Below are positions 13,037 to 15,133 of a DNA stretch of 39,432 nucleotides, piece by piece. This DNA comes from Candidatus Bipolaricaulota bacterium (GTDB lineage: Bacteria > Bipolaricaulota > Bipolaricaulia > UBA7950 > UBA9294): contig JAGGSO010000132.1 of the NCBI GenBank assembly GCA_021159055.1, forward strand, positions 1-39,432, read 5' to 3'. How positions within the stretch are numbered: the first letter of the stretch is position 1; the number at the start of each line of letters is the position of its first letter. The notes under the pieces are model-generated. The model made no database searches. It saw nothing but the letters and a program-made list of their open reading frames with translations, and had not been told where the DNA came from. A program made the position numbers and the translations under genes.

Positions 13037-13289
13037 TCCGAAGGGGTGGATGCGCCAGAAGCAGTGCGATTAAGCGCGGGACACCGCACTTTGGGGCAGG
13101 GGAGCATGGTGGCCACGTCGATGAAGTCGAGGATCCCCTTTCGGGGTATGACGTTCCCGGCAGAGATAACGGTAAAACGGGAGAGGGAAAGATCCTTCCG
13201 CCTTTATCCCGCGGGCGGCTATCAAGCCCCACCATTGGACCACGAAACTCATGCACTCTGGGGGTGTAACTGCTAACGAGGTGATTGCA
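13037..13289. other. Intergenic stretch with hairpins and a possible small ORF
   Basis: About 250 bases without a recognised gene. Visible structure includes GTGCG/CGCAC around 13070-13094, a CCCC-TTTC-GGGG hairpin at 13134-13145, and CCGCC/GGCGG around 13199-13218. On the plus strand a frame opens at GTG 13046 and at ATG 13106 (GGGGAGC just before it) and ends with TAA at 13274-13276, 13 bases before the chagasin start. This gives a possible 56- or 76-residue basic peptide ending LWGCNC. Codon choice is not clearly that of the neighbours. No plus-strand promoter for the chagasin gene was convincing. It could be a structured RNA, a small gene or decayed sequence; I cannot choose. Confidence 0.35.
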
Positions 13290-14090
13290 ATGCAGAAGCT
13301 TTTCATCGGGAGCGTGATCGTATTGATGCTGGGAGCGGCGTTTTCCCTGTCTGGATTCGCCCAGGCGCGGGCATCGAGCTCCGCTTCCACGGACGGTCCG
13401 GTACGTGCGACGGTGGGTACGTTCGTACTCGAGGAGGGAAGCAGGATCGCGTTCGAGCTCAGGCGGAGCGATCCGTGTCCGTGTATGTGCGGGGATATCT
13501 TCGTCACCGGCATGAGCGTCGTTGATCGAGCCGGGAAAGAGGTCTACCGCGAGGGGGTGGACTCGGTCCCCTACACCGACTGGACCGGGATGTGGGATCT
13601 CTCCCGGGCGGATGGAACGCCGGTTGCACCCGGGGAATATACGATCCTTATTCGCACTTCGCTCGGGGAGTTCCGCGCCGAGGTGAGAATCGTCCACCCC
13701 GGGGAGGGGAGCTTCTCCGGAAGGTTGTGCGCCACCGCGTCGGTATGCGGACTGGGGCTCGATGTCTACCGCTTGGTCACCAAGGATGACGACGGTAAAA
13801 CGATCCCACTGCGGGCCGGGGACAAGGTCATGATCGCCCTTCCCGGCAACCCGACGACCGGCTACGAATGGACGGGACCGGATGCCCTCCCCGCTGGAGT
13901 GTTGGAGCCGATCCCCGGGGTGAACTACCGCCCGGAGAGCGGTCTCATCGGAGCGGGTGGGACATTCCTATTCCGCTACGCTGCGATCGGACCTGGTAGG
14001 GTCGAACTTTCGTTCTCCTACCGCCGTCCGTGGGAGGAGGCCCCGGCCTCCGATTCTTTCTCCATCGTAATCTCAGTCGGAGGTGTCTAA
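13290..14090 (+). CDS. Secreted chagasin-family (I42) cysteine-protease inhibitor with an N-terminal Ig-like domain
   Basis: A 266-residue exported protein. Residues 1-28 are a Sec signal peptide (MQKLFIGSVIVLMLGAAF, then a polar end). Residues about 40-135 form a beta domain resembling FlgD/Ig modules, with DWTGMWDLSRADGTPVAPGEY and an unusual CPCMC at 63-67. Residues about 155-266 are a chagasin domain with all three inhibitory loops: NPTTGYEW (187-194), GAGG (221-224) and RRPW (245-248). In known chagasins these loops wedge into papain-like active sites. The frame opens at 13251, but ATG 13290 follows GAGGTGAT with 5-base spacing and begins the signal peptide. A natural target is a secreted papain-like or C39-like enzyme; a candidate lies at 19506. 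The chagasin call is strong; the target is inference. Confidence 0.85.
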   Translation: MQKLFIGSVIVLMLGAAFSLSGFAQARASSSASTDGPVRATVGTFVLEEGSRIAFELRRSDPCPCMCGDIFVTGMSVVDRAGKEVYREGVDSVPYTDWTGMWDLSRADGTPVAPGEYTILIRTSLGEFRAEVRIVHPGEGSFSGRLCATASVCGLGLDVYRLVTKDDDGKTIPLRAGDKVMIALPGNPTTGYEWTGPDALPAGVLEPIPGVNYRPESGLIGAGGTFLFRYAAIGPGRVELSFSYRRPWEEAPASDSFSIVISVGGV

Positions 14091-14130
14091 AAAGTTGTGG
14101 TTTGAGGAATAATCAAAGCGAGTCGGAAAG

Positions 14131-14140
14131 AAGGAGGTGA
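14131..14140 (+). promoter_or_regulatory. Perfect Shine-Dalgarno sequence upstream of the riboswitch, with no start codon nearby
   Basis: AAGGAGGTGA matches the 16S anti-Shine-Dalgarno over ten bases, yet no ATG, GTG or TTG lies in the usual window after it. It ends 4 bases before the P1 helix of the c-di-GMP aptamer. The start codon of the secreted protein begins 6 bases after the 3' end of P1. If the aptamer folds, the site and ATG are about 10 unpaired bases apart in space. Confidence 0.6.
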
Positions 14141-14143
14141 AAA

Positions 14144-14230
14144 ACTTCGGACCGATAAGGGCAAACCTCACGAACAGGAAGTGAGGGGCGCAAAGTCACG
14201 GGCCTGAGATGGCAGCCGGACTACCGAAGG
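14144..14230 (+). ncRNA. Cyclic di-GMP-I (GEMM) riboswitch
   Basis: The sequence matches the GEMM-I aptamer consensus: AAGGGCAAACC (14158-14168), a hairpin closed by CCTCAC/GTGAGG, then GGGGCGCAAAGTC, GGGCCT, and GGCAGCCGGACTACCGAAG at the end. The terminal P1 helix pairs CTTCGG (14145-14150) with CCGAAG (14224-14229), six perfect pairs. No transcription terminator lies between the aptamer and the ATG at 14236, so control should be at translation. The weak GAAGG at 14226-14230 overlaps the 3' strand of P1, while a perfect ribosome-binding site lies on the 5' side at 14131-14140. The L2 loop here (GAACAGGAA) is longer than the usual GNRA tetraloop. It is transcribed in the direction of the secreted-protein gene. 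Confidence 0.92.
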
Positions 14231-14235
14231 CGAAG

Positions 14236-14751
14236 ATGAAACGATGGATAGTTATTTCCCTTCTTCTTACGATCCTTTTCTCCATCCCCGTGTTTGCCGG
14301 TAGCTCGGCAAGCGCGACGGTCACTGTATCGTGGAAGGTTCTCCCGTTCCAATCGCTTACCATCCTCGGCGGTGAAGGGAACGGGACGAGCGTGACCTCG
14401 CACTTCGAGCTTGGTACTCCCACCCCGGCCGAGATCGCTGCCGGGTTCATCGAAGAGGACGGCGCCCTCACCCTGGTCGCGGCGAGCAACATCCCGTGGA
14501 CGGTGAAGGTGCACGCCGTGGAGGCGAACATGGGGGAGAGCTACGATGGAACCTATGTGAAGCCGCTCTCCGATTTCCTCATCCGGGCCAACGGCGGCGA
14601 GTTCACCCCGATCTCCCAGCTGGATCAGACGCTGGCGAGCGGGACCCGGGGTTCCTACCAGCTCACAATCGACTACAAGGTTCTCCTCGACCCCGAGTTC
14701 AAGCCCGGTGACTACGGGATCACGCTGGTGTACACGATAACCGGAGAATAG
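14236..14751 (+). CDS. Small secreted beta-rich protein under c-di-GMP riboswitch control
   Basis: A 171-residue exported protein I do not recognise as a named family. It begins with a clean signal peptide (MKRWIVISLLLTILFSIPVFAGSS). The rest is predicted beta-strand: alternating patterns such as SATVTVSWKVLP, LTLVAASNIPWTVKVHAV and a C-terminal GDYGITLVYTITGE, without cysteines. This resembles the style of WxL, DUF4402 or coat-protein-U-like surface sandwiches, but no signature proves it. The frame runs back to 14209, but that ATG lies inside the aptamer; ATG 14236 starts the signal peptide. Because c-di-GMP governs adhesion and matrix in many bacteria, a structural or adhesive surface role is a reasonable inference. 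The stop is one base from the convergent ComEA-like gene. Confidence 0.8.
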   Translation: MKRWIVISLLLTILFSIPVFAGSSASATVTVSWKVLPFQSLTILGGEGNGTSVTSHFELGTPTPAEIAAGFIEEDGALTLVAASNIPWTVKVHAVEANMGESYDGTYVKPLSDFLIRANGGEFTPISQLDQTLASGTRGSYQLTIDYKVLLDPEFKPGDYGITLVYTITGE

Positions 14752-14752
14752 A

Positions 14753-15133
14753 TCACGGGCCGCCGAGGCTCACGGAATCCTTTATCTCTTCCACCGTCTT
14801 CTCCCCGATCCCGGGGACGTTTTTCAGTTCGTCCACGCTCCTGAACGGTCCGTGTTCCTGCCGATAGGCGACGATCCGCTGTGCCAGGGTCTCTCCGATC
14901 CCGGGAAGACGGGTCAACTCTTCCACCCCGGCGGAGTTCAGATCGATCCGCGGGCGGGAGGAGAGGAACTCCGGGACGATCACACGCACGTCAGGGAGTA
15001 TGACCTCCACAGGCGGCGGGATCCGCGGACGACGAAACTCGGGGATGAAAATGGCAATCCCCGCCGCCACGATCGCCAGCCCGATGAGAATGATCAGCCC
15101 CCGCTCCTGGGCCGAGGAGAGACCGCGGGTCAT
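14753..15133 (-). CDS. ComEA-like helix-hairpin-helix protein with membrane anchor
   Basis: A 126-residue protein with one N-terminal transmembrane helix ([19 protein letters not shown], about residues 12-30), a proline-rich linker, and two HhH motifs at the C-terminus: [19 protein letters not shown] and [19 protein letters not shown]. The layout is that of ComEA, the outward-facing DNA-binding protein of natural transformation. The same layout also occurs in uncharacterised envelope proteins, and no comEC or other competence gene is in the window. The start overlaps the upstream gene's stop by 4 bases (ATGA). The gene ends one base from the convergent riboswitch-controlled gene with no terminator between. 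Confidence 0.88.

Follow-up and report, generated by a model that had tools for sequence, protein, structure and literature searches.

In phage T4, RNA structure shortens the distance between Shine-Dalgarno sequence and start codon from 22 to 5 bases in gene 38 and from 27 to 11 bases in gene 25, and mutations weakening the bridging structure lower initiation of these genes (PMC3014915). The Escherichia coli thrS leader likewise has a split site, which is arranged around a hairpin (PMC3936740). Riboswitches of the c-di-GMP-I class that act on translation usually expose or hide the ribosome-binding site or the start codon (PMC7266159), whereas in Clostridioides difficile a c-di-GMP-II aptamer coupled to a group I intron lets c-di-GMP join a distant ribosome-binding site to the start by splicing (PMC3984707, PMC9481103). 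In direct-occlusion riboswitches, such as SAM-II and preQ1, the site is hidden in the bound state; the portion of a 2024 mechanism review available to us sets out direct-occlusion and strand-exchange groups, names glmS and the T-boxes as hard to classify, and describes no bridging group (PMC10907184). A limited literature search, covering few subscription papers, found no ligand-gated split-site riboswitch, and only a modelling paper on thrS was relevant.

The window analysed here is the whole 39,432-nucleotide stretch of DNA, one contig from a Candidatus Bipolaricaulota bacterium, whose 1.62-Mb draft genome contains nine c-di-GMP-I matches. We describe a leader in this window in which an aptamer of that class lies between a strong Shine-Dalgarno sequence and the start codon of a predicted secreted protein.

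A c-di-GMP-I-type aptamer separates a strong Shine-Dalgarno sequence from the start codon

All features of the leader lie on the plus strand, where window positions 14131-14238 read, in order, AAGGAGGTGA, AAAA, CTTCGG, the aptamer, CCGAAG, GCGAAG and ATG. The positions that the initial annotation had given for AAGGAGGTGA, the two P1 strands, the GAAGG at 14226-14230 and the ATG all agreed with the sequence. AAGGAGGTGA (14131-14140), the upstream half of the ribosome-binding site, had been called a perfect Shine-Dalgarno sequence, and rightly so: because the 3' end of the 16S rRNA of the same genome (L364) reads GGATCACCTCCTTTCTA, ten of its ten bases can pair, and the duplex with the anti-Shine-Dalgarno sequence amounts to -18.1 kcal/mol. 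The downstream half of the initiation region is the ATG at 14236-14238, at which place the homologues also begin, with a signal peptide.

The aptamer, P1 included, occupies 14145-14229. A search of Rfam confirmed that it is a full c-di-GMP-I (GEMM-I) aptamer, as RF01051 (clan CL00126) matched 14150-14228 with 61.8 bits against a gathering score of 35. RF03167 matched 14151-14229 with 59.1 bits, only just reaching its gathering score of 59. The c-di-GMP-I-GGC variant that RF03167 represents was rejected, given this borderline score and a core with GCAAAG in place of the GCGAAG expected from RF03167, the variant-defining core column being our own reading of that model's consensus. GCAAAG is present in 230 of the 261 aptamers surveyed in the phylum. 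Judged by its sequence, the core looks like that of an ordinary, canonical c-di-GMP-I RNA, with c-di-GMP as the predicted ligand.

In c-di-GMP-I RNAs, P1 closes the aptamer junction and the ligand adjoins P1. Here P1 is formed by CUUCGG (DNA CTTCGG, 14145-14150) and CCGAAG (14224-14229). Between its strands lie a hairpin with the stem CCTCAC/GTGAGG (14166-14186) and a second hairpin (14194-14222), both of which pair in 9/9 aligned sequences, with two-sided changes at one pair of the former and two of the latter. Covariation supported the three-helix fold, with 89.7% of cells paired and two-sided changes at four pairs, a result as high as which was reached in 0/500 shuffles. Because the MAFFT alignment misregisters P1 in six rows, P1 was assessed sequence by sequence, and this reading gave 6-8 contiguous pairs in eight leaders.

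Short linkers flank P1 on both sides. The 5' linker, AAAA (14141-14144), joins the site to P1 and is 2-6 bases long in homologues, varying with P1 length, while the 3' linker, GCGAAG (14230-14235), joins P1 to the start codon and measures 5-8 bases in homologues. The 3' linker, with an own-site energy of -3.8 kcal/mol, offers no usable site, and no second site near the AUG was found in the leader. In line, the site and the AUG are 95 bases apart, as had been claimed for the open P1, and 92-96 bases apart in homologues; across a closed P1 the distance from GGAGG is 10-13 bases. The earlier figure of about 10 unpaired bases for the closed state counts from the last A of AAGGAGGTGA. The 10-13 bases from GGAGG exceed the 4-8 bases usual for most genes of the window but come near the 11 of T4 gene 25. 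In anatomy alone, the nine leaders examined thus have the make-up of a split site, namely a strong site that is too distant in line and a structure through which a working distance is obtained.

It had also been noted that no start codon occurs within 60 bases of the site. This is correct for ATG, the first of which lies within the aptamer at 14209 and is absent from G002 and G007, but a GTG occurs at 14181-14183, 41 bases past the site. Another GTG overlaps the site itself (GGTGA), and it is conceivable that the upstream site serves a short leader ORF, or acts as a standby or anchoring site, and is not the one from which the gene itself is initiated. However, the GTG frame has neither a kept length nor a kept sequence in homologues and lacks a site of its own, and no second site exists near the AUG to which a standby complex could move; we regard this as the least probable of the readings weighed here. 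A leader peptide starting at the GTG in GGTGA was rejected on the ground that its frame is not kept across homologues.

Scanning for the sigma-70 consensus revealed no complete promoter. A -10-like element, AATAAT, is present at 14108-14113, with TATAAT or a similar sequence at a comparable place in several homologues, and would have transcription begin about 10 bases before AAGGAGGTGA.

The controlled gene (14236-14751) encodes a 171-residue protein that belongs to no Pfam family and is predicted to be a secreted beta-sandwich (AlphaFold2 mean pLDDT 89). The best Foldseek matches of this model were 9ikj and 9ikk (TLP-1a/b; E 1.5e-4 and 6.3e-4), and chaperone-usher pilins matched weakly, so that the modelled product resembles fibre- or pilin-type surface proteins. 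The product of the preceding gene (13251-14090) is also a secreted protein; it contains a peptidase inhibitor domain of the chagasin type (PF09394, E 3.4e-19) and matches FlgD-like Ig weakly. On the minus strand, a convergent gene (14753-15133) encodes a protein that by eye is a ComEA-like helix-hairpin-helix protein. Similar sequence stands beside the homologues in G001, G002, G013 and G015, in support of orthology.

The upstream site is conserved in homologous leaders

Homologues of the controlled gene were detected in 59 of the 100 genomes searched. The close set comprised the nine nearest, at E of about 1e-50 or lower and with that of the window included; their leaders come from six genera, eight of them (G000, G001, G002, G007, G013, G015, G021 and G027) belonging to one family and G033 to another in the order. 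All nine leaders (9/9) consist of GGRGGTGA, 2-6 bases, P1, the aptamer, P1, 5-8 bases, and ATG or GTG, so the alignment of homologous leaders proposed with the initial annotation came out in its favor on both sides of P1. When the nine leaders were anchored at the site, mean pairwise identity was 0.94 in the eight-base block GGRGGTGA and 0.25-0.31, near chance, in the preceding 67 bases. This difference between block and flank indicates that the site is kept by selection rather than by recent descent. In five more distant homologues the aptamer is missing, and there the site is not split: a Shine-Dalgarno sequence of -9.1 to -11.9 kcal/mol lies directly before the start.

The leaders also bear on a classical occlusion, in which closure of P1 would mask GAAGG in its 3' strand and turn translation off. 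P1 holds most of this rival site, and GAAGG (14226-14230) is well spaced from the ATG at 14236 in the window. Yet only two of the nine leaders, G000 and G013, carry GAAGG, the other seven having CCGAAGA, CCGAAGT or CCGAAAA; CCGAAG belongs to the aptamer consensus; and masking would give no reason for the strict conservation of the upstream site. We consider such masking extremely unlikely, and the suggestion of an alternative or repressive site within P1 did not survive the comparison. Nor does the locus have the layout of a direct-occlusion riboswitch, as the aptamer does not include the conserved site, and the GAAGG inside P1 is not conserved.

Strong upstream sites accompany start codons close to P1 across the phylum

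The phylum sample was identical to the class sample and consisted of the same 100 genomes; c-di-GMP-I aptamers were found in 94 of these relatives. The survey was built from the highest-scoring matches and covered 261 aptamers with their flanks, 260 of which had enough upstream sequence. P1 and the next start codon were located by script, and pairing with the anti-Shine-Dalgarno sequence was scored. A site of -12 kcal/mol or stronger in the 20 bases 5' of P1 was present in 10/54 aptamers with a start 0-8 bases 3' of P1 and in 0/206 otherwise (p 7e-8); with a single homologue of the window gene kept, a site of -9 or better was present in 9/47 versus 5/206 (p 1e-4); and within 60 upstream bases a site of -10 or better was present in 39/92 aptamers whose start lay at most 12 bases from P1 versus 21/168 (p 1e-7), the p values being inflated by relatedness and the contrast in kind remaining. 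Where the start lay further downstream, the site was usually 3' of the aptamer (90/135). A tight split also occurs before an unrelated secreted-protein gene (G059:C132, L294), whose leader reads AAAGGAGATGAAACC-GGTCC...GGACC-C-ATG.

Leader conservation, the unsplit sites of aptamer-less homologues and the phylum-wide contrast together show that the ribosome-binding site is genuinely split and that selection maintains it in this form. The order of parts originally described, that is, a site, a short linker, an aptamer closed by P1, a short linker and the start, consequently has strong comparative support. A pattern search with GGAGGTG and GGCAAACC in 85,000 genomes yielded no true aptamers among the matches listed after filtering, and a pattern scan of viral contigs likewise gave none among the matches listed after filtering; the pattern was unspecific in both.

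Other arrangements of aptamer, site and start codon

Several further leaders of the phylum combine the same elements in other ways. In G065:C115 and G065:C79 (L048, L014), the hairpin loop of a complete first aptamer contains a perfect site, AAAGGAGGTGAA, and the P1 of a second aptamer holds the start codon. In several f4 genera (L026, L027, L030, L037 and relatives), an aptamer with the ATG in P1 is preceded at a distance of 26-28 or 38-45 bases by a strong site, and an aptamer-like short remnant or a variable hairpin stands between the two. The sequences of the f4 and f5 leaders with the start codon in P1 suggest OFF switches. A leader found in the three genomes of the genus of the window (L002, at G000:C100:13132-13207; L246; L283) has an extended P1, GTGACCAT/ATGGTCAC, which holds the ATG of a secreted protein, and by its sequence this is probably an OFF switch too.

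In genus g7 (L096, L098, L344, L351, L352; G017, G029, G008, G023), the P1 3' strand itself is the site (ACCTCT...GGAGGT). From the sequence this looks like the conventional OFF type, within the same family as the leaders with the site 5' of the aptamer. In G000:C30 (L001, L006), tandem aptamers precede CCTAATGGTGG, which can mask the site; ACCATTAGGAGGTGC lies about 40 bases further downstream, before an ATG. In G099:C80 (L498), the aptamer is followed by a terminator-like CACCTCC...GGAGGTGTTTGTTTG, the 5' arm of which overlaps the P1 region, and a transcriptional switch is likely from this layout.

Closure of P1 by c-di-GMP may switch translation on

We consider it fairly likely that the leader is a c-di-GMP-I riboswitch whose aptamer serves as its own expression platform, closure of P1 by the ligand turning translation ON. 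The mRNA would probably begin shortly before the perfect Shine-Dalgarno sequence, the aptamer parting this site from the start codon. In the absence of c-di-GMP, P1 would tend to be open, leaving site and AUG about 95 bases apart and initiation poor, and in CUUCGG-type leaders the freed P1 5' strand could cover part of the site. Upon binding of c-di-GMP, the aptamer would fold and P1 would close, joining site and AUG across the P1 base; with 10-13 unpaired bases from GGAGG to AUG, the 30S subunit could then engage both and translate the gene. We infer that ribosomes initiate from the site with the folded aptamer lying in between, that closure of P1 depends on a ligand, that c-di-GMP is this ligand and that its binding turns the gene ON; the direction follows because the leader holds no other site and in no predicted fold are site and start brought together unless P1 is formed. 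A fibre- or pilin-type surface product would fit induction by c-di-GMP, which often induces such proteins.

The P1 5' strand (14145-14150) has an alternative partner in the GAGGU of the site. The resulting ACUUC/GAGGU hairpin has a predicted energy of -4.7 kcal/mol in the window and -3.3 to -4.7 kcal/mol across CUUCGG-type leaders, whereas pairing between P1 5' strand and site is weak or absent in leaders of other types. In CUUCGG-type leaders, therefore, closure of P1 would also free the site. A pairing of the site with an ACCUC of the aptamer was noticed by eye and discarded, since it occurred in no predicted fold.

Folding predictions, which ignore tertiary contacts, placed closed P1 at 0.3% to 89% of the ligand-free ensemble, depending on the species. 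Because this predicted probability ranges from 0.003 to 0.89, P1 may close unliganded in some species. Were P1 generally stable without ligand, the two halves would always be joined, as by the hairpin of T4 gene 25, and c-di-GMP would have little effect or merely tune expression. The 6-8 contiguous pairs of P1 and its ligand-free closure at 0.73-0.89 in G001, G002 and G007 agree with such a constitutive arrangement; ligand-free P1 is, however, rare in G000, G013 and G033 and partial in the others, and the leaders retain the ligand-binding core, for which a simple spacer would have no use. A constitutive bridge is thus unlikely.

The bound, bulky aptamer might conversely block the 30S subunit, so that the gene would be translated from an open or remodelled unliganded leader and turned OFF by c-di-GMP. 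In other leaders of the phylum, P1 contains either the start codon or the site, and there closure should repress. In the present leaders, an unformed P1 leaves 92-96 bases between site and AUG, no ligand-free predicted fold uniting them was seen, and the AUG has no other site nearby, which makes obstruction improbable here. The folded aptamer, at 85 bases, nevertheless exceeds in bulk the hairpins that bridge known split sites, and this counts against the proposed bridging.

In the genus of the window, all three genomes show complementarity between codons 6-14 of the controlled gene (within 14236-14280) and the upstream site, beyond what codon-order shuffles give. Such base pairing between site and early codons, aided by P1 closure, might make an OFF or opposing switch. 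In G000-G002 this pairing amounts to -12 to -16 kcal/mol, surpasses 98-100% of the shuffled codon orders, and occurs together with P1 in predicted folds; in the six other homologues it is not significant (0.07-0.83 of shuffles as strong), and the coding stretch encodes a hydrophobic signal peptide. An opposing switch of this kind appears very unlikely as an account of the leaders, although the pairing could oppose initiation in the genus of the window.

For the bridging by a ligand-closed P1 as a wider type, we lean somewhat toward the following description. The aptamer would fold between Shine-Dalgarno sequence and start codon as a ligand-gated splint that sets a working distance and activates translation, the closing helix being its sole moving part; it would occur in one order, before the gene of a surface-fibre-like protein, with variant forms (the site lying in the loop of an aptamer further 5', the start codon in P1) phylum-wide.

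Comparison with known split sites and riboswitches

If the proposed mechanism is true, an ON riboswitch needs no separate expression platform, as an aptamer inserted into a normal ribosome-binding site would suffice. This would open a simple evolutionary route to ON switches, provide an annotation rule for "orphan" strong sites 5' of aptamers, offer an ON-switch design ready for synthetic use, and mean that a large folded tertiary structure can be spanned by an initiating ribosome.

With T4 genes 25 and 38 and with thrS, the leader shares the principle that RNA folding between the two parts of the initiation region gives a working distance, which is 11 bases in gene 25 and 10-13 here. The bridging element differs, being a plain hairpin in the T4 genes and an operator hairpin in thrS but an 85-base metabolite-binding aptamer in the present leader. 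Aptamer fold and core are like those of the c-di-GMP-I (GEMM-I) riboswitches of RF01051 and RF03167; unlike in the usual members of this class, the site lies upstream of the aptamer, and the aptamer is inside the initiation region. The C. difficile system relies on a class II aptamer and on splicing, whereas here, if our reading is right, folding alone would act, and reversibly. As in direct-occlusion riboswitches, the aptamer would act alone, without a separate expression platform, but its bound state would complete the site rather than hide it. Provisionally, the new element is thus a split ribosome-binding site bridged by a metabolite aptamer, the parts of which have precedents.
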